A DNA stretch of 64,000 nucleotides from Bradyrhizobium monzae (GTDB lineage: Bacteria > Pseudomonadota > Alphaproteobacteria > Rhizobiales > Xanthobacteraceae), in assembly GCF_021458635.1 (NCBI RefSeq), contig NZ_JAIRDQ010000001.1, positions 1,736,001 through 1,800,000 on the forward strand, read 5' to 3'. The translations under genes were made by a program, and so were the position numbers. The notes under the pieces were generated by a model. The model was not told the origin of the DNA and made no database searches. It worked only from the letters and a program-made list of their open reading frames with translations. Positions 9,545 to 50,440 of this stretch are shown one piece after another. Position 1 is the first letter of the stretch. The number at the start of each line of letters is the position of its first letter.

Positions 9545-9733
9545 CAAACTTCTCCCTGCCGATATCGCCGCGCCGCCAGCCGGACGCTGCGAAAACATGC
9601 CACGCCATCGTGGTGAGACGCGGCAGGGAAGGAACTGGTTCGATTGGGGTTTCCGTTGGGCGCCGCTGCGGCGGCACCATGGCCGCGGAACGCGTCACCG
9701 CGCCGCGGCAGAACCTCGACTCAAAGGCCGCGT

Positions 9734-10354
9734 TCAGGTCTGGCTGGGCGAACCCTGCCCGTAGATGCGGCGGAGCAAATCTGTCACGTTGCGGGCGCCG
9801 GCCTTCTTCAAAATGCCGGCGCGATAGCCCTCGACCGTGCGTGCGCTCAGATGTATGCGACGGGCGATTTCCTTGTTGGTCAGGCCGGCGGCGAGATGGG
9901 CGAGCACGTCGCCTTCGCGCGCGGTCAGGGGCTCGCAGCCGGGCAGCCAGCGCTGCCGGCTCGAATCGGGCTGGGCGGACTCGTCGATCGCGGCATCGAT
10001 CCGACCGACGACGTCGTGGGTGCGAAACGGCTTCTCGATGAAATCTGCCGCGCCGCTCTTGATGGCGTCGACCGCCATGGCAATGCTGCCGTTCGCCGAG
10101 GTGACCAACACCGGCGCCATGCAGTTTTCCTCGCGCAGGCGCCTGAGCACGTCGAGGGCGGAGCGATCCGGCGGCATCTCCAGCAACACACAGGCCGGCA
10201 TCCGCGCCTTGGCCTCCGACAAAAGCGATGCGCCGTCGGCAAAGCAAATCACGTCGTAGGCGCTCTGTTGAAGCGCCGTCGACAGTTGTTCGCGGGAGGC
10301 GGCGTCAGTTTCAATGACGAATACCTCACCCTTGGAAAGCATGTTTCCCGGCAT
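9734..10354 (-). CDS. FixJ/LuxR-type response regulator with degenerate receiver
   Basis: A 206-residue two-domain protein: receiver at about 10-125 and a LuxR/FixJ helix-turn-helix at about 143-195 (LTAREGDVLAHLAAG ... NKEIARRIHLSARTVE). The receiver keeps Thr85 and Lys108 (in EKPF). The acidic pair is Glu15-Thr16, and the phosphoacceptor position appears to be Glu59 (ACVLLEMPP), with one residue missing after it. It may therefore work without phosphorylation or be locked in one state. No histidine kinase is adjacent. It diverges from the AraC gene at 10557. The start at 10354 was preferred; an in-frame ATG also occurs five codons in. Confidence 0.85.
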   Translation of the reverse strand: MPGNMLSKGEVFVIETDAASREQLSTALQQSAYDVICFADGASLLSEAKARMPACVLLEMPPDRSALDVLRRLREENCMAPVLVTSANGSIAMAVDAIKSGAADFIEKPFRTHDVVGRIDAAIDESAQPDSSRQRWLPGCEPLTAREGDVLAHLAAGLTNKEIARRIHLSARTVEGYRAGILKKAGARNVTDLLRRIYGQGSPSQT

Positions 10355-10488
10355 AATCCCGATCCAGTAATGTCTTGGTCAAATGGCACGTGACGGCCGG
10401 AGGCCCCATCGCGCCCCGCCGTCAATGAGCACGGCATTCGCGCCTGTGCTTCGGTCTTCCTTATGTATGTTCCACACTGTTCCCGGAT

Positions 10489-10525
10489 TTGACGGATCGG
10501 GACAGAAACTTTACATTTCGGGACA
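10489..10525 (+). promoter_or_regulatory. Predicted promoter and direct repeats of the AraC gene
   Basis: TTGACG (10489-10494), a 17-base spacer, then TACATT (10512-10517) resemble a sigma-70 promoter, placing the transcript start near 10524 and a leader of about 33 bases before the ATG at 10557. Two copies of TCGGGACA (10497-10504 and 10518-10525) lie exactly 21 bases apart on either side of the -10 element, as expected for a dimer binding two helical turns. Autoregulation by the AraC protein is an inference. Confidence 0.5.
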
Positions 10526-10556
10526 TCTGCGGGAATGGCTGACAGGAACAGGTCGC

Positions 10557-11594
10557 ATGACCGACCTCATTCGCAGCGCAGGCTTGAGCTGTTACCCGGA
10601 AGTCGCCCGGTCGGTCGGGCTCGACCCCAGGCAGATGATGCGCAGGGTCAGACTGCCGCTGGCCATCCTCGACAAGCCCGATACACCCATTGCGGTCCCA
10701 GCTTTGCGTCGCCTGCTCGAATTGTCGGCAGAGGAATCCGGTGCCGAAGATTTCGGCTTACGGCTGGCCGAGCGCGGCGGCCTCACCAATTTCGGCGCGG
10801 TCGGCCTGATCGTGCGCGAACAAGCAACCGTCGGTGAAGCCATCGACGCTTTCTCGCGCTTCATCCATATCCATCATGACGGCATGAAGCTCGACGTTGT
10901 CAGAGACAAGCAGACCGTGACCGTCACATTGCATCTGCGCGGTCGGCAGCCGACGGCCCCGCGCCAGTCGATCGACATGGCGCTGGGCAGTGTTCACCGC
11001 ATCATCCAGTCGCTGTACGGAGGTGACTGGCGGCCGCAGGAGGTGCATCTGCACTACCCGCCGCCGCACGACCGCAAGCGCTACCGCGACTTCTTCGGCT
11101 GCCGCGTGATCTTCAATGCGGAGGAGGATTCGATCCTGTTGTCGGCGCACGACATGGAGCGGCGGATCCCGAGCGCGCATCCGCTGATCGCGAACTATCT
11201 GCGCAAGCGGATCGAGGCGATCGAAAGCCGGCCGGCGAGCTGGGAGGAGAAGGTCGACGAGGTCGTGCGCATCCTGCTCGCAGGTGGCGACTGCACGGTC
11301 GAACGCGTCGCCGAGCATCTCGCCTGCACACGTCGCACCATCCACCGGCGCTTGGCTGAAGCCGGTACCAGCTTCTCGGCCATCCTGGATGCGCAGCGCG
11401 CCGATCTCGTGATCCAGCTGATCGAGGACCCCGGCCGGCCGCTGGCGGATATTGCCGCACAGCTCGGCTTCTCCGCGCAGAGCGCCATGGCCCGCTGGTT
11501 CCGCGGCCGCTTCGGCTGCACCATCACCGACTGGCGCAAGGGCGTGCGGCCGCTGGCGCAGCCGGCCGACGTCGCGTCGGCATCAGCCGCTTAG
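10557..11594 (+). CDS. AraC-family transcriptional regulator
   Basis: A 345-residue regulator. Residues about 20-205 match the arabinose-binding-like sensory domain of the OruR/ArgR-like AraC subgroup (RSAGLSCYPEVARSVGLDP at the start). The C-terminal 100 residues carry two helix-turn-helix units (VERVAEHLACTRRTIHRRL and LADIAAQLGFSAQSAMARWF). The ATG at 10557 was chosen over longer frames because AGGAACAGG lies upstream and the conserved domain begins there. It ends three bases before the convergent nnrS gene. The inducer and targets are unknown. Confidence 0.88.
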   Translation: MTDLIRSAGLSCYPEVARSVGLDPRQMMRRVRLPLAILDKPDTPIAVPALRRLLELSAEESGAEDFGLRLAERGGLTNFGAVGLIVREQATVGEAIDAFSRFIHIHHDGMKLDVVRDKQTVTVTLHLRGRQPTAPRQSIDMALGSVHRIIQSLYGGDWRPQEVHLHYPPPHDRKRYRDFFGCRVIFNAEEDSILLSAHDMERRIPSAHPLIANYLRKRIEAIESRPASWEEKVDEVVRILLAGGDCTVERVAEHLACTRRTIHRRLAEAGTSFSAILDAQRADLVIQLIEDPGRPLADIAAQLGFSAQSAMARWFRGRFGCTITDWRKGVRPLAQPADVASASAA

Positions 11595-11597
11595 GGT

Positions 11598-12809
11598 TCA
11601 GCGCGCCGGCGCCGGCACGCCCATGATGGCGAGTGCGCGCCGCGGGCTGCCGGCGAGCAGCGGTCCGAACGCGGCTGCAAAACCGAGGAACGCGACGATC
11701 CAGCCGCAGGCGGTGATGTGCAGCAGCACATCGCCATGCGCCGGCAACACCACGGCGGCGACCCGCGCCAGTGCCGCGACGATGATCGCGACGTAGATGG
11801 CTTGCGTCGCCAGTGACGCCGTCAGCGCCTGCCCGGTATGACCAAGGCTCGCGCGCGTCATCACCGCGAGCGTCATGATTCCGGCCGCGCCCGTCATCCA
11901 GGCATGAATGCCCGCACTCGGCGGCAGCTCACCGAAGCCGGCCAACGCATTGAGGAAGAAGCCGAGCGGAACGAAGGCGTAGCCGACATGCAGGATCAGC
12001 AGCAGCCGCTCCCGCGTGGTGCGATCACCGGCCCAGCGCGCGAGCCGCACCAGGTGCAGCAAGCCGACAAGCGCCATTGCAACCCCTGTAACCGTGTTCA
12101 GCGGCGCCGCGATCCACGCGATGAGCGTCAGCGCACTCAACCCGATCACCACGCCATCGAACCGTCCGAACGGCACCGGCAGGCGGCCGGAGTTGAACTT
12201 GACCAGCCAGTTGCGGGTAAAACTCGGGATGATGCGGCCGCCGATCAGCGAGATCAGCAGCACGACCACGCCGATGCCGACGCGAATGCTGACATCGGCT
12301 GCACCTTCGTAGTGGGCTTCGAGATGGAAGGCGACATTGCCGCCAAGCAGCACCAGCGCGAGCACGACGACCGGCAGATTGCGCCAATTGCCGCCCGCGA
12401 TGATCTCGCGCGTTGCCGCCGCAACGACGAGTGCCAGAAAGGCGGCGTCGACGCCCAGCGCGAACGCCCAGCCGATCTCGGCGGACAGAACCACCGCGGC
12501 GCGCCCGGCGAGCCAGACCACCAGCAGCGCGCCAAGCGACGTGCCCTGGATCGGAAGGCGCCCGGTCCAGTTCGGGATCGCCGTGAACAGGAACCCGGTG
12601 ATGACAGCGGGCAGGAAGCCAAAGAGCATCTCGTGGACATGCCAGTCCCGCGGCGCGAAGGCCGATGTGACCGACAGCTCGCCATAGAACATCGGCAGCC
12701 AGACCAGGATCGACAGGCCCGCCTGGATCGCGGCGAGCAGGAAAAAGGGTCGAAAGCTGTTCGCAAACAGCGGCCAGCCCGCAAAGTTACGGGATCGTAC
12801 GCCAGCCAT
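11598..12809 (-). CDS. nnrS: NnrS family haem/copper membrane protein
   Basis: A 403-residue polytopic inner-membrane protein, about 12 spans, of the NnrS family linked with nitric oxide tolerance and denitrification. Typical features are the N-terminal FRPFFLLAA near residue 20, HVHEMLFGF near residue 56 and conserved histidines in later spans. The start at 12809 follows AGGAG seven bases upstream and fits the family N-terminus. It diverges from the Crp/Fnr-type gene at 12950 and shares its NnrR box. The -10-like TATTTT lies at the expected distance from that box, so NO-dependent activation is likely. Confidence 0.92.
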   Translation of the reverse strand: MAGVRSRNFAGWPLFANSFRPFFLLAAIQAGLSILVWLPMFYGELSVTSAFAPRDWHVHEMLFGFLPAVITGFLFTAIPNWTGRLPIQGTSLGALLVVWLAGRAAVVLSAEIGWAFALGVDAAFLALVVAAATREIIAGGNWRNLPVVVLALVLLGGNVAFHLEAHYEGAADVSIRVGIGVVVLLISLIGGRIIPSFTRNWLVKFNSGRLPVPFGRFDGVVIGLSALTLIAWIAAPLNTVTGVAMALVGLLHLVRLARWAGDRTTRERLLLILHVGYAFVPLGFFLNALAGFGELPPSAGIHAWMTGAAGIMTLAVMTRASLGHTGQALTASLATQAIYVAIIVAALARVAAVVLPAHGDVLLHITACGWIVAFLGFAAAFGPLLAGSPRRALAIMGVPAPAR

Positions 12810-12856
12810 GGGGCAACTCCTGTGAATTCGGACCGTCACTTGGATCCTGACTTGGA

Positions 12857-12897
12857 AAAATACTGCCGTCCGGCCGGCCCGTTTTGCGCTATCGCAA
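12857..12897 (-). promoter_or_regulatory. Shared NnrR box and nnrS promoter
   Basis: TTGCGCTATCGCAA at 12884-12897 is a near-perfect Crp/Fnr-family operator with TTGCG/CGCAA arms and a four-base centre. On the nnrS strand a -10-like TATTTT (12857-12862) is centred 31 bases away, which puts the box at about -41.5, the class II activation position. On the other strand the box centre is about 59 bases before the nnrR ATG, so the same site could autoregulate nnrR. Confidence 0.75.
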
Positions 12898-12949
12898 ACT
12901 ACTGGACGATTGCAGGTGCCATCACACTCCTGAGCGCCAAGGAGGCAGG

Positions 12950-13660
12950 ATGGCCAAGGTCGACACATCGCTGGTTGCGCATTTGCCGCTGTTTGCCGGC
13001 GTCAAGCCGGAAGCCCTCGACGAGATCCTGCGCGAGGCCCGATCAGTGCGCTATCCCAAAAACACCGCCATTTTCGAGCAGGGCGCGGACGCGCAGTCCT
13101 TCTTCCTGCTGCTGCACGGCCATGTCCGCGCCGCCAAGACCACGCCGGCCGGCGAACAGATCGTGGTACGCTATGTCGCGCCCGGCGAGACCTTCGGGCT
13201 CGCAATGGCGATTGGCGCCGCGCAGTATCCGGCGACCGCGATGGCGGTCGATGACAGCGTCGCGCTGATCTGGCCGAATTCGGCCTGGCCGCGGCTGACC
13301 GAACGGTTTCCCGCGCTTGCCGCCAACACGATGCAGACCGTCGGCAAGCGGCTGCAGGAGAGCCACACCCGTATTCTCGAAATGTCGACCCAGCAGGTCG
13401 AGCAGCGCGTCGCGCATGCGCTGCTGCGGCTCGCCAGCCAGTCCGGCAAGAAGCTCGACCACGGCATCGAGATCGACTTCCCGATCAGCCGCCAGGACAT
13501 CGCGCAGATGACCGGCACCACGCTGCACACGGTGAGCCGTATCCTCAGCGGCTGGGAGAGCCAGGGTCTGGTCGAGAGCGGCCGGCAGCGCATCATCCTG
13601 CGCGATCCGCACAGGATCGTCGTGCTGGCAGAGCGGAATCCGGGCAGCGGCGCCGCCTGA
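12950..13660 (+). CDS. nnrR: Crp/Fnr-family regulator, NnrR/Dnr type
   Basis: A 236-residue regulator. The cyclic-nucleotide-like sensor domain is at about 10-125, the dimer helix at about 125-160 and a winged helix at about 165-225. It contains no cysteine at all, so it cannot hold an Fnr-type iron-sulphur cluster, which fits the NO-responsive NnrR/Dnr group. The recognition helix reads TLHTVSRIL, with His193 where Fnr has Glu and with Ser196-Arg197 conserved; the nearby boxes begin TTGCG rather than TTGAT. The start follows GGAGG five bases upstream. It is surrounded by nnrS, hemN, nirK and nirV, which supports the assignment. Confidence 0.88.
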   Translation: MAKVDTSLVAHLPLFAGVKPEALDEILREARSVRYPKNTAIFEQGADAQSFFLLLHGHVRAAKTTPAGEQIVVRYVAPGETFGLAMAIGAAQYPATAMAVDDSVALIWPNSAWPRLTERFPALAANTMQTVGKRLQESHTRILEMSTQQVEQRVAHALLRLASQSGKKLDHGIEIDFPISRQDIAQMTGTTLHTVSRILSGWESQGLVESGRQRIILRDPHRIVVLAERNPGSGAA

Positions 13661-13707
13661 CGATAGGGGTGAGGTCGGGCGCGCCCCCGCGCAGATTCCA
13701 ACTCATA

Positions 13708-13905
13708 TCATGCCGGCACGCATTCGCTCAGCGCGGCGAGAAACTTGTCGCGATCGATGCCGTGCTCGCGGCAGGCGTCGTCCACGGTATGGAAGGTTGC
13801 GATCGGACAGCCGACACAGGCCATCCTGAAGGCGAGGAACACGCGGATCGTGTGCGGCGCCGCGCGCATGATGTCATCGACCAGATCGTCGGATCGGAAG
13901 GGCAT
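13708..13905 (-). CDS. DUF1858 redox-disulfide small protein
   Basis: A 65-residue protein of the DUF1858 / hybrid-cluster-associated redox disulfide family. The motif ACVGCPIATFHTVDDA carries a CxxC pair near residues 29-32. Such proteins are found beside hybrid cluster proteins, nitrite reductases and NO-response genes, and are thought to act in nitrosative redox chemistry; the exact reaction is unknown. The ATG at 13905 follows a GGAG. An NnrR box with a matching -10 lies directly upstream, so it appears to be transcribed separately from hemN, which ends at 13979. Confidence 0.85.
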   Translation of the reverse strand: MPFRSDDLVDDIMRAAPHTIRVFLAFRMACVGCPIATFHTVDDACREHGIDRDKFLAALSECVPA

Positions 13906-13926
13906 GGACAACTCCGTTCCGAAGTG

Positions 13927-13967
13927 ACGATAGCGGAGCTGGGCTGAGTTTCTTTGTTGAAGCGCAA
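13927..13967 (-). promoter_or_regulatory. NnrR box and -10 of the DUF1858 gene
   Basis: TTGTTGAAGCGCAA at 13954-13967 has the TTG-N8-CAA form with one perfect CGCAA arm. On the minus strand TATCGT (13927-13932) is centred 31 bases downstream, the same geometry as at nnrS. The transcript would start near 13919, giving a leader of about 14 bases before the ATG at 13905. Confidence 0.65.
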
Positions 13968-13978
13968 GCTGGTGGCAA

Positions 13979-15331
13979 CTACACCGCCCGGCTATGCAGC
14001 TGCTTACCCGGATCCAGATGCGCATCGAACGCGGCCGCGACGCTGCGGACCAGGAAGCGCGCGTCGTTCGCGACCGCAAGGCGATCGCCGTCGAGCCTCA
14101 CCACGCCATCCGAGATCAACGGCTCCAGCCGCGACGCAGACTTGAGCATCGCCTCCGGCTTTGCGCCATGACGCGCGCAGATGTCGCCGAGATCGGCGCC
14201 GAACTCGCACATGATGCGCTCGATGATGTCGGCACGCAGCCGGTCGTCATCGGTGAGCCCATAGCCTTTTGCGGTGGCGAGGCGGCCATCCGCGATGCCC
14301 TGCGCATAGGCACCGATCTGCACCGCGTTCTGGACGTAGCCCTGCGGCAGACGTCCGATCGCACTGGCGCCGAAGCCGAGCAGGACCTCGCTTTGGTCGG
14401 TGGTGTAGCCCTGGAAATTGCGCCGCAGCGTCCCCTGCTCGAATGCGACCGCCATGGCGTCGTCGGGGCGCGCAAAATGGTCGAGCCCGATCTGCATATA
14501 GCCGGCCTCCTTCAGCGCGTTGGCGATGGCGCAGGCCTGGTCATGGCGCGCAAGGCCGTCGGGCAGATGATCCACGTTGATCATGCGCTGGTGCTTCTTG
14601 AAATCAGGCACATGCGCATAGCCGAACACCGAGAAGCGGGCCGGCGCGAGCTCCAGCGAACGCCGCACCGTATCCAGGCAGGACGCAATCGTCTGGTGCG
14701 GCAGGCCGTAGATCAGGTCGAAATTGATCCCCTTGATGCCGGCGCTCTGGAGCATGTCGACGACGGAGGCGGTCTGTTCAAAACTCTGCAGGCGGTTGAT
14801 TGCGCGCTGCACGACGGGATCGAAGCTTTGAACGCCGAGGCTGGCGCGGTTGACGCCGGAGAGCCGCATCGCTTCCACCATCTCTGATGTCAGCGTGCGC
14901 GGGTCGATCTCGACCGCAATCTCGGCCGAAGGCAACACGAAGAAGACGTGACGCATCGCCGCCATCAGCTCGGCAAAGGCCTCCGGCGCCATGATCGTCG
15001 GCGTGCCACCGCCGAAATGGATGTGCCCGACCTTGATGCGGCGGCCGATGGCATCAGTGACCTCGGCGATTTCGCTGCGCAACGTCCGCTGATAGGACGC
15101 GATCAGCCCGTCGCGGCGAACGATCTGGGTATGGCAGCCGCAATACCAGCACATCTCGCGACAGAACGGCACGTGCAGATAAAGTGATGCGCTCGCGTTC
15201 GAGGGAAGCTCCGACAACCAGCGTGCGTAGGTGTCGGCACCTATCGACGGCGAGAAATGCGGCGCGGTCGGATAGCTCGTGTAGCGCGGCAGGCGCTCCT
15301 CGCCGTAGCTTGCCGCGAGATCGGTCCTCAT
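13979..15331 (-). CDS. hemN: Oxygen-independent coproporphyrinogen III oxidase
   Basis: A 450-residue radical-SAM enzyme converting coproporphyrinogen III to protoporphyrinogen IX without oxygen, needed for haem synthesis under low oxygen. The cluster motif CxxxCxxC is Cys57-Cys61-Cys64, followed by Cys66, in FCREMCWYCGC. FGGGTPTIM (about residues 107-115) follows in the barrel, and the HemN C-terminal domain is present. The length fits HemN proper (about 450). A TAGGAT ribosome site precedes the ATG. Lying between nirK and nnrR, it supplies haem for denitrifying growth. Confidence 0.95.
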   Translation of the reverse strand: MRTDLAASYGEERLPRYTSYPTAPHFSPSIGADTYARWLSELPSNASASLYLHVPFCREMCWYCGCHTQIVRRDGLIASYQRTLRSEIAEVTDAIGRRIKVGHIHFGGGTPTIMAPEAFAELMAAMRHVFFVLPSAEIAVEIDPRTLTSEMVEAMRLSGVNRASLGVQSFDPVVQRAINRLQSFEQTASVVDMLQSAGIKGINFDLIYGLPHQTIASCLDTVRRSLELAPARFSVFGYAHVPDFKKHQRMINVDHLPDGLARHDQACAIANALKEAGYMQIGLDHFARPDDAMAVAFEQGTLRRNFQGYTTDQSEVLLGFGASAIGRLPQGYVQNAVQIGAYAQGIADGRLATAKGYGLTDDDRLRADIIERIMCEFGADLGDICARHGAKPEAMLKSASRLEPLISDGVVRLDGDRLAVANDARFLVRSVAAAFDAHLDPGKQLHSRAV

Positions 15332-15499
15332 ATCCTACCCATTCGTCGATTGATGCCGCTTGCGGTAACGGCAGGCTCCGGATGGCACTGGATTACCCGC
15401 TTTCGAACCCGCGACCTTGCGCTCGCTCAAAGTCCGGGCGCCGTGCCGCGCGTCGGTGCACCTCCTAAGGAATTCACCGGAGGCGAATCCGGCAAAACC

Positions 15500-15513
15500 T
15501 TGTCGCAGCGCAA
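15500..15513 (+). promoter_or_regulatory. NnrR/FixK-type box upstream of nirK
   Basis: TTGTCGCAGCGCAA has the TTG-N8-CAA form with one perfect CGCAA arm, like the box at 13954. It is centred 76 bases before the nirK ATG, which would place the transcript start near 15548 and a leader of about 35 bases. The expected -10 position reads CACACT, a weak match. Confidence 0.65.
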
Positions 15514-15582
15514 ACACTCTTGCGGCAACAGGCGCACACTGCATCCGTCATTAAAACCCTTTCACATGAAGGATGCTTTACG

Positions 15583-16680
15583 ATGTTCACCCGCAGAGCC
15601 GCATTGATCAGCGCCGCCGCGACCGCTCTGATGCTCGCGACACCCGCCTTCCCTGCCAGCGATCTCAAGCTGCCGCGGCAGAAGGTCGAGCTGGTCGCCC
15701 CGCCCTTCGTGCACGCGCACGAGCAGGCCACGACGCAAGTGCCCAAGATCATGGAATTCAAGATGACCATCGAGGAGAAAAAGGTGGTGATCGACGACAA
15801 GGGCACGACCTTCCAGGCCATGACCTTCAACGGCTCGATGCCGGGCCCGCTGATGGTCGTGCATGAAGGCGACTATGTCGAGCTGACGCTGCTCAATCCC
15901 GCGACCAACACCATGCCGCACAACATCGACTTCCACTCCGCGACCGGTGCGCTTGGCGGCGCCGAGCTCACGCTGGTCAATCCCGGCGAGCAGGTCGTGC
16001 TGCGCTGGAAGGCGACGCGGACCGGCGTGTTCGTCTATCACTGCGCGCCGGGCGGCCCGATGATCCCCTGGCATGTCGTCTCCGGCATGAACGGCGCCGT
16101 GATGGTGCTGCCGCGCGACGGACTGAACGACGGCAAGGGCCACGCGCTGAAATACGACAAGATCTACTATGTCGGCGAGCAGGACATGTACGTGCCGCGC
16201 GACGAGAAGGGCAATTTCAAGTCGTACGACTCGCCGGGCGAGGCCTTCACCGACACCGAAGAGGTGATGAAGAAGCTGATCCCCTCCCACGTCGTGTTCA
16301 ACGGCAAGGTCGGCGCGCTCACCGGCAAGAACGCGCTGACGGCCAAGGTCGGCGAGAACGTGCTGATCGTGCATTCGCAGGCCAACCGCGACAGCCGCCC
16401 GCATCTGATCGGCGGCCATGGCGACTATGTCTGGGAGACCGGCAAGTTCTCCAACCCGCCGGAGACGGGGCTCGAGACCTGGTTCATCCGCGGCGGCTCG
16501 GCGGGCGCGGCGATGTACAAGTTCCTGCAGCCCGGCATCTACGCCTATGTCACGCATAATCTGATCGAGGCCGCCGACCTCGGCGCCACTGCGCACTTCA
16601 AGGTCGAAGGCAAGTGGAACGACGATCTGATGACCCAGGTGAAGGCGCCTGCGGAGATACCGGCTCCCAATACCAACTAG
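15583..16680 (+). CDS. nirK: Copper-containing nitrite reductase
   Basis: A 365-residue periplasmic enzyme reducing nitrite to nitric oxide, the defining step of denitrification. The signal peptide (residues 1-26, TRR near the start) suggests Tat or Sec export. Type 1 copper ligands are His113, Cys154, His164 and Met169. Type 2 ligands are His118, His153 and His325. Catalytic Asp116 and His274 are also present, so the enzyme looks intact. The start was set at 15583 after AAGGA because the signal peptide begins there. An NnrR-type box lies upstream and a terminator-like hairpin just downstream, before nirV. Confidence 0.97.
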
Positions 16681-48943: not shown

Positions 48944-50440
48944 ATGGCTGCCAGTATTTTGATCGCCGACGACGACGCCGTAGCCCGCCGTCTGGTCGAG
49001 AACATGGTGCAGAAATGCGGCTATGAGACGGTCGTCGTCGAGTCCGGCGACGCCGCAATCGCGGCCCTCACTGCCCCCGATGCGCCGGCGATCGACGCCG
49101 TGATCCTCGATCTCGTGATGCCCGGCCTCGACGGCATGGGCGTGCTGGCGAAAATCCGCGAAGCCGGCCTCAGCGTACCCGTCATCGTGCAGACCGCCCA
49201 TGGCGGCATCGACAACGTGATCTCGGCGATGCGCGCCGGCGCTGCCGATTTCGTGGTCAAGCCGGTCGGCGTGGAGCGGCTCCAGGTCTCGTTGCGCAAC
49301 GCGCTCAACGCCTCCGCACTCAAGGGCGAATTGCAACGCATCCGTCACAGCCGCGAGGGCAGGCTGACCTTCTCCGACATCATCACGCGCGCCGAAGCGA
49401 TGGCGGGCGTGATGCGCGCGGCCCAGAAGGCGGCGAACTCCTCGATCCCGGTGCTGATCGAAGGCGAGTCCGGCGTCGGCAAGGAAATGTTCGCGCGCGC
49501 CATCCACGGCAGCGGCGAGCGCAAGGCAAAGCCCTTCGTTGCAGTCAATTGCGGCGCGATCCCCGACAACCTCGTCGAGTCCATCCTGTTTGGCCACGAG
49601 AAGGGCGCGTTCACCGGCGCGACCGAGCGGCATACCGGCAAGTTTGTCGAGGCCCATGGCGGCACGCTGTTTCTGGACGAGGTCAGCGAGCTGCCGCTGA
49701 CCACGCAGGTCAAATTGCTCCGCGCCCTGCAGGAAGGCGCAGTCGAGGCCGTCGGAGGCCGCAAGCCCGTGAAGGTCGACGTCCGCATCATCTCCGCGAC
49801 CAATCGCAAGCTTCTGGAGCGGGTGAAACAGGGACACTTCCGGGAAGATCTGTTCTACCGCCTGCACGTGCTGCCGCTGACAATCCCGTCGCTCAGGGCC
49901 CGGCGCGAGGACATTCCGCATCTCCTGCGGCATTTTCTGGCGCGCTTTGCCGCCGAGGAGAACCGCCCGATCTCCGGCGTCAGCGGTGAGGCCATGGCGC
50001 ATCTCGCCCAGCTCGACTGGCCCGGGAACATCCGCCAGCTCGAAAACGCTGTTTACCGCGCGGTGGTGATGAGCGAGGGCGACCAGCTCGGCCTCGACGA
50101 TTTCCCGCTGGTCGCGTCGCATCCGCAGACCGCAACGGAGATTCCAACCGCGCCGCTGATGATCGAGCCTATCGCAGCGCCATCGTTGGTGTCGGGTAAT
50201 GAAATACCGATCGTTCCGCTGCCCCTGGCAGGGTCTCTCTCGATGTTGACCTCCACCGGCGATGTCCGTTCTCTCGAAGACATGGAGAACGAGATCATCC
50301 GCTTTGCGATCTCGCACTATCGCGGGCAGATGTCGGAGGTGGCGCGTCGCCTCAAAATCGGCAGATCCACGCTCTACCGCAAACTCGATGAAGCCGGGGT
50401 TCCCGGACATGGCGGGAAAAGCGGCGAGGAGACGCACTGA
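48944..50440 (+). CDS. Sigma-54-dependent response regulator (NtrC family)
   Basis: A 498-residue regulator. The receiver has Asp56 in VILDLVMPG. The AAA+ domain has Walker A GESGVGKE (174-181), the sigma-54 contact loop GAFTGA (221-226) and Walker B TLFLDE (241-246). The C-terminus has a Fis-type helix-turn-helix (MSEVARRLKIGRSTLYRKL). All catalytic features are intact, so it should activate sigma-54 promoters. No kinase or target operon is adjacent; it is an orphan in this window. Confidence 0.92.
   Translation: MAASILIADDDAVARRLVENMVQKCGYETVVVESGDAAIAALTAPDAPAIDAVILDLVMPGLDGMGVLAKIREAGLSVPVIVQTAHGGIDNVISAMRAGAADFVVKPVGVERLQVSLRNALNASALKGELQRIRHSREGRLTFSDIITRAEAMAGVMRAAQKAANSSIPVLIEGESGVGKEMFARAIHGSGERKAKPFVAVNCGAIPDNLVESILFGHEKGAFTGATERHTGKFVEAHGGTLFLDEVSELPLTTQVKLLRALQEGAVEAVGGRKPVKVDVRIISATNRKLLERVKQGHFREDLFYRLHVLPLTIPSLRARREDIPHLLRHFLARFAAEENRPISGVSGEAMAHLAQLDWPGNIRQLENAVYRAVVMSEGDQLGLDDFPLVASHPQTATEIPTAPLMIEPIAAPSLVSGNEIPIVPLPLAGSLSMLTSTGDVRSLEDMENEIIRFAISHYRGQMSEVARRLKIGRSTLYRKLDEAGVPGHGGKSGEETH

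Follow-up and report, generated by a model that had tools for sequence, protein, structure and literature searches.

The question raised by this locus is how a FixJ-like regulator is controlled when glutamate occupies its phosphoacceptor site and no kinase gene lies beside it. The regulator is encoded at 9734..10354 on the minus strand of the window, the whole 64,000-nucleotide stretch of Bradyrhizobium monzae DNA that was analysed, and comprises 206 amino acids without an internal stop. Pfam assigns residues 11-119 (9998..10324, minus strand) to a receiver (REC) domain (PF00072, Response_reg; 1.6e-16, 60.8 bits against a cut-off of 30.2) and residues 142-195 (9770..9931, minus strand) to a LuxR/GerE HTH domain (PF00196; 3.6e-15, 55.8 bits, above the cut-off). 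An AlphaFold model based on 22 sequences (mean pLDDT 80.7, pTM 0.60) has five strands and five helices in a (beta-alpha)5 fold, plus the HTH, and both this fold and the REC-then-GerE order are those of the FixJ/NarL class by output. The best solved relative by sequence and by fold is full-length B. japonicum FixJ (5xso, 5xt2; 30% identity by fold search), which has the same domain plan but differs in retaining the acidic pair and the Asp. Identity with FixJ proper was ruled out by the NCBIfam model NF006900, for which the regulator scores 138 bits against a cut-off of 255.

Alignment with the 5xso structure places Glu59 (codon GAG, 10178..10180, minus strand) opposite the phospho-Asp of FixJ, and Glu15-Thr16 (codons 10307..10312, minus strand) opposite its Asp pair, with a one-residue gap directly after Glu59 that leaves the beta3-alpha3 loop one residue short. 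The initial annotation had proposed each of these departures (Glu at the phosphoacceptor site, one missing residue and a replaced acidic pair), and the alignment agrees with all three. Its further claim that Thr85 and Lys108 remain stands for Lys108 but not for Thr85: it is Ser86 that aligns with the conserved FixJ Thr (M-T-G), and Thr85 is the T-1 position, itself altered, as 78 of 87 Asp-type relatives have Ile there. The regulator thus reads E15-T16-D17, E59 and K108; from the canonical response-regulator set Ser86 and Lys108 are present, together with the K-3 aromatic Phe105, and the Asp and the second acid are absent. In the model, strands 3 and 4 end with Glu59 and Ser86, respectively, and Lys108 follows directly on strand 5.

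A PF00072 receiver in which the acceptor Asp is replaced and a further active-site residue is lost (here to Thr16) has the sequence features of an aspartate-less receiver. Such proteins make up ~4% of all receivers and most of them keep the first acid and lose the second (PMC12632262), while Glu is the commonest acceptor replacement, at 26% (PMC4395418). The regulator resembles them in this pattern of acids, in having no linked kinase and in its DNA-binding output. With Glu59 for the acceptor Asp and Thr16 for a metal-binding acid, the residues establish, at the level of sequence, that the regulator would be unable to take phosphate in the usual way.

The kinase context is in line with the statement in the initial annotation that no kinase stands beside the gene. 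HATPase_c is absent from the whole 64-kb window, and the nearest match on the same contig, among the matches listed, is ~274 kb off (C1:1470975-1471307). FixJ-like genes on three other contigs of this genome (C5, C23 and C43) adjoin kinase ATPase domains, unlike the regulator. Elsewhere in the window, at 48944-50437 (plus strand), an NtrC-type regulator (REC, sigma-54 activator and Fis HTH) is encoded, again in a window without any HATPase_c match. Loss of Asp phosphorylation is supported by Glu59, Thr16 and the missing nearby kinase. That the protein is still phosphorylated by a distant kinase, through inefficient chemistry or as phospho-Glu, strikes us as highly improbable: Ser86, Lys108 and Phe105 are kept, the genome has 73 HATPase_c matches, and phosphorylation of Glu has been mentioned as chemically possible (PMC4395418), but 116 of 118 close orthologues lack both the Asp and the second metal ligand, and no kinase is linked.

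These orthologues come from a search of 265 Bradyrhizobium genomes, from which all 118 close orthologues (identity >=80%, window included) were taken; among the extracted frames one begins at a non-standard ATT and a few at GTG or TTG. Among the matches listed, at least 12 further genomes have a distant homologue with an AraC gene next to it; L151, L153 and L154, also fetched, are not such homologues and represent the Asp-type paralogue. Aligning homologues had been suggested earlier as a check on whether Glu59 is conserved, and Glu is found in 116 of the 118 close orthologues, the other two having Asp, and in 11 of the 12 listed distant AraC-linked homologues. Separately fetched GTDB loci, which overlap in species with the set of 118, have Glu59 in 56 of 56 close orthologues. 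Thr16, Phe105, Lys108 and Phe110 (at K+2) are each present in 118/118. Position 15 is Asp in 77 and Glu in 41, and Glu15 is therefore one of two states. At position 16 the 12 listed distant AraC-linked rows have Asp (9), Asn (2) or Glu (1), and they show no shortening directly after Glu59. Read from these alignments, Glu59 is a lineage trait across much of the genus.

On a tree of 73 close rows, built without the trait columns, site 15 changed between Asp and Glu 16 times and site 59 changed twice, and therefore it appears to be Glu itself that is kept, not merely an acid. The codons at site 59 are GAG (109), GAA (6) and GAC (2) in 117 rows, and those at site 15 are GAC (64), GAT (12), GAA (33) and GAG (8), which leaves the mutational step open. 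The receiver and the HTH have median dN/dS values of 0.102 and 0.100 (1,490 and 1,494 pairs, respectively, retained from 1,500 sampled; 117 of 118 rows). Chance or sequencing error behind Glu59 was ruled out by the agreement of 116 genomes and the median dN/dS of 0.10-0.11. A decaying duplicate without function would account for the lost active-site and loop residues and for the truncated HTH in 1 of 118 copies, yet it is extremely improbable given a full-length reading frame in 117 of 118, a dN/dS of ~0.10 in both domains, and conserved neighbours and intergenic blocks; a pseudogene was ruled out by the same dN/dS and full-length copies. Together with the frequency of Glu in close and listed distant homologues, the contrast between sites 15 and 59 bears out selective upkeep of Glu59, and we regard maintenance of both the protein and Glu59 by selection as demonstrated.

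The idea in the initial annotation that the protein may be permanently active or use a signal other than phosphate is partly supported. Homologues with Asp at this place, which that annotation had named as what would refute its reading, do occur, in the Asp-type paralogue family and in L150, L155 and L163; given their settings, they do not refute it. The two close orthologues with Asp59 both stand in damaged loci: a frame change truncates the HTH of L155 (181 aa), and L163, alone among 117 fetched orthologues, lacks the AraC gene. Counted post hoc, by hand and with kinship ignored, the odds that both Asp59 rows, two of 118, would be both damaged loci are 1 in 6,903; on the same terms they rise to 15 in 6,903 when the damaged loci are taken to include L164, L166, L169 and L170, whose AraC reading frames are doubtful. 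The dN/dS of L163 (0.187) is the highest, just above the background maximum, and that of L155 (0.145) falls inside the background of 0.085-0.179. The third row, L150 (G151), is AraC-linked and has Asp59 with an intact DDD, but its loop is altered in another way and T-1 is Ala; it would be either a reversal or an early branch.

The closest relatives of the regulator are an Asp-type paralogue family (C14:2986-3582 in the same genome, L283-L313 in other genera), ~39-53% identical. In contrast to the regulator, its members have an intact Asp, nearly always the acidic pair, and Ser-Gly at T/T+1; in the window's genome a kinase domain adjoins the paralogue, ~0.5 kb away, and an AraC neighbour was not found in the flanks examined. 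Asp59 was read in 40 of 40 further relatives, 38 of them from other genera, and Asp also occurs in 53 Bradyrhizobium paralogue loci. For the residue comparison, Glu-type rows were chosen by Glu59, and L150, L155 and L163 are excluded by design. Thr85 is found in 116/116 close Glu-type, 10/11 distant Glu-type and 0/87 Asp-type rows (among the four commonest letters), and Cys78 in 116/116, 8/11 and 1/87, respectively. In the recognition helix the Glu-type proteins have Gly176-Tyr177, versus mostly Asp-His in the Asp-type family.

The distribution of Cys78 bears on a reading that gives Glu59 a structural role instead of a phosphomimetic one and puts the receiver under the control of thiol redox (Cys78 with Cys55 or Cys37), a small ligand or a protein contact. 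We consider it unlikely. It would fit Cys37 and Cys55 being present in 116/116 close Glu-type proteins, the Cys-based control known for RitR and HP1021 and the ligand control of other pseudo-receivers (PMC12632262), as well as the Phe at K+2, which does not favour a constitutively active state. The redox part is weakened by three Glu-type homologues without Cys78 (L147, L149 and L152), from which it follows that Glu59 came without Cys78, and by the occurrence of Cys55 in 55/87 and Cys37 in 70/87 Asp-type relatives too. The paralogue invites another reading, in which the regulator acts as a heterodimer partner or competitor of this ~52% identical protein, as WhiI does for BldM (PMC12632262). 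The two co-occur, with 2 matches at E<=1e-45 in nearly all Glu-type genomes, among the matches listed; the differences at residues 176-177 and at position 196 nevertheless make shared DNA sites unlikely and the genes are unlinked (C1 versus C14 in the same genome), so that we rate this arrangement as rather improbable.

Among the matches listed, nine of 11 distant Glu rows keep an acid at position 16; Glu59 thus occurs together with an intact acidic pair and appears to have arisen before the second metal ligand was lost. Loop shortening is seen only in the Thr16 clade. The order of events would then be duplication of an Asp-type regulator that came to sit beside araC, replacement of Asp59 by Glu followed by Thr85 and Cys78, then loss of the second acid to Thr16 and, last, shortening of the loop. 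In a quick tree, to be read with its long branches (L150, L149, L152 and the outgroup) in mind, the main clade of 83 rows (82 of the Glu lineage plus L150) has an SH-aLRT support of 97, the Thr16 clade 100, and the grouping of all 85 AraC-linked rows only 44. The tree nests the seven full-loop close rows within the short-loop rows; constraining the 66 short-loop rows together gives a likelihood 15.2 higher (p-AU 0.762), and constraining together the 82 main-clade rows without L150 (80 Glu-type rows plus the nested Asp59 rows L155 and L163) gives one 1.96 higher (p 0.547). These tests are compatible with the short loop having arisen once, and Glu once in the main clade (L150 excluded), but do not prove it.

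The divergent partner, at 10557..11594 on the plus strand, encodes an AraC-family regulator with Arabinose_bd and HTH_18 domains (Pfam, NCBIfam). Its best NCBIfam match is QhpR, and it was not filed as QhpR because its score of 181.7 bits is below the cut-off of 250. With its start taken as 10557, the two genes share an intergenic region of 202 bp (10355..10556); an upstream ATG at 10383 is unused in the aligned distant AraC homologues (~335-345 aa aligned). The divergent AraC gene adjoins the regulator in 116 of 117 fetched close orthologues and in 12 of 12 listed distant ones, and this neighbour was not found in the 4-kb flanks of the 40 further Asp relatives.

Two promoter-like matches occur in the intergenic region, against 0.2 expected in shuffles. 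A putative sigma-70-like promoter of the AraC gene, TTGACG-N17-TACATT (10489..10517, plus strand), is a consensus match, and the second, TTGACC-N18-GATTAT, is oddly placed, overlapping the start codon of the regulator. By eye, no convincing sigma-54 or EcfG promoters were seen in the intergenic regions, and the window has no Rfam match. A direct repeat with 21-bp spacing is the usual shape of an AraC-family operator, and such a repeat, TCGGGACA-N13-TCGGGACA with a 21-bp period (10497..10525, plus strand), is likely the operator of the AraC protein. It is the sole exact copy in the genome, and of the 118 close and 12 listed distant AraC-linked loci, 115 and 10, respectively, contain TGTCCC-N15-TGTCCC with at most one mismatch. 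It is missing from L149 and L152, and the best matches in the three paralogue loci carry 3-4 mismatches. Just 5' of the regulator start, TTTGACCAAGACATT (10369..10383, minus strand) is exact in 92 of 118 close loci and in 0 of 15 distant loci.

A wider regulon defined by the AraC repeat was considered and set aside: with at most two mismatches it occurs at 12 places in the genome (reversed control, 1), the exact form only in this intergenic region, and several of the others are 21-bp tandem arrays. Tandem 21-bp repeats with near-copies of the TCGGGACA half-site lie outside the window at C1:1812950-1812999 and C6:67515-67606 and are probably minisatellites. A CTACTTG-like motif is common to the upstream regions of the Asp-type paralogue in L151, L153 and L154 and, by eye, is absent beside the Glu-type gene.

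Downstream of the regulator, a DUF4139/DUF4140 protein of the mucoidy inhibitor MuiA family (TIGR02231; 7865..9598, minus strand) is encoded in 116 of 117 fetched orthologues, and this gene is a possible candidate target. A stretch of ~40 bases near 9616-9662, between the two genes, is nearly invariant in 117 close loci. On the other side, 11598-16680 holds NnrS (minus), an FNR/CRP-type regulator (plus), DUF1858 (minus), hemN (minus) and a nirK-like multicopper oxidase (plus), matching the order of the B. diazoefficiens nnrR (blr7084)-nirK (blr7089) region, given as blr7084-bsl7085-bll7086-blr7089 (PMC6710368). From that order our guess would put the B. diazoefficiens orthologue near bll7081. 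A literature search found no paper on the regulator gene, its AraC partnership or its graded history, and a search by locus tag gave only blr7084 (nnrR). Upstream sequence extends beyond 6.5 kb in 115 orthologues, of which 94 have NnrS, 92 the FNR-type gene and 89 nirK on that side; within the flanks examined, none of these genes accompanies any of the 12 listed distant AraC-linked loci. A role as a denitrification-specific regulator was rejected, as this link is patchy in close loci and absent in distant ones, and looks secondary.

Our best explanation, to which we give about an even chance, is a phosphorylation-independent pseudo-receiver regulator, probably active-like through Glu59, with an output that would depend on expression under the AraC protein or jointly with it. 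Glu59 would probably mimic phospho-Asp by extending to Ser86 and Lys108, and the receiver would stay active-like through the coupling pair Ser86-Phe105, which is retained; from this we infer constitutive activity. The amount of protein would then set its activity, under or jointly with the divergent AraC regulator, whose ligand-binding domain may have taken over the sensing role of the lost kinase, as suggested by its co-retention with the regulator and the shared, conserved putative operator. In favour count the conservation of Glu59 and Thr16, the changes at site 59 versus site 15, the restriction of Asp59 to L155 and L163 among close orthologues, the dN/dS values, the Asp of the further relatives and paralogue loci, the lack of a kinase domain in the window, in contrast to the one near the Asp-type paralogue, the AraC co-retention, the conserved repeat, Thr85 in the Glu clade and the changed recognition helix, as well as the related-class regulator DevR, in which overexpressed D54E raised target expression above wild type (PMC4973870). 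Against it count that overexpressed DevR D54V was also active and that D54E was inactive in an earlier report (PMC4973870), the two Asp59 orthologues plus L150, and the dN/dS of L155 within the background; the absence of the repeat from L149 and L152 counts against the AraC step. Permanent activity in particular is opposed by the Phe at K+2, which biases CheY towards the inactive form (PMC12632262), and by ChxR of Chlamydia trachomatis, which still binds DNA when its natural Glu is replaced by Asp or Ala (PMC4395418). ChxR resembles the regulator in its natural Glu at the acceptor position and is phosphorylation-independent; it differs in its OmpR/PhoB-type output, and the part of PMC4395418 available to us mentions no AraC link for it.

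Glu-type receivers are a kind already known. What is added here, and sets the lineage apart from other aspartate-less receivers, is a stepwise natural series within one genus, in which the divergent AraC neighbour is fixed and Asp has returned naturally twice. How pseudo-receivers are switched on and how they evolved from real receivers is described as an open question in a 2025 review (PMC12632262), and this lineage offers close proteins at successive steps, with an ancestor-like Asp-type paralogue in the same cells, in easily handled bacteria; the two Asp returns in damaged loci add to its value. Whether Glu59 is an activating mimic or structural can be addressed by residue swaps between existing natural proteins. 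More tentatively, and with well under an even chance of being right, the locus may be a two-gene switch that takes the place of a histidine kinase and its response regulator and consists of an AraC-type sensor and a FixJ-type executor, the latter permanently 'phosphorylated-looking', with a stepwise origin visible in living Bradyrhizobium and Asp regained only where the pair is broken. If so, the ligand would be sensed by the AraC protein and the signal carried by the Glu-type regulator.
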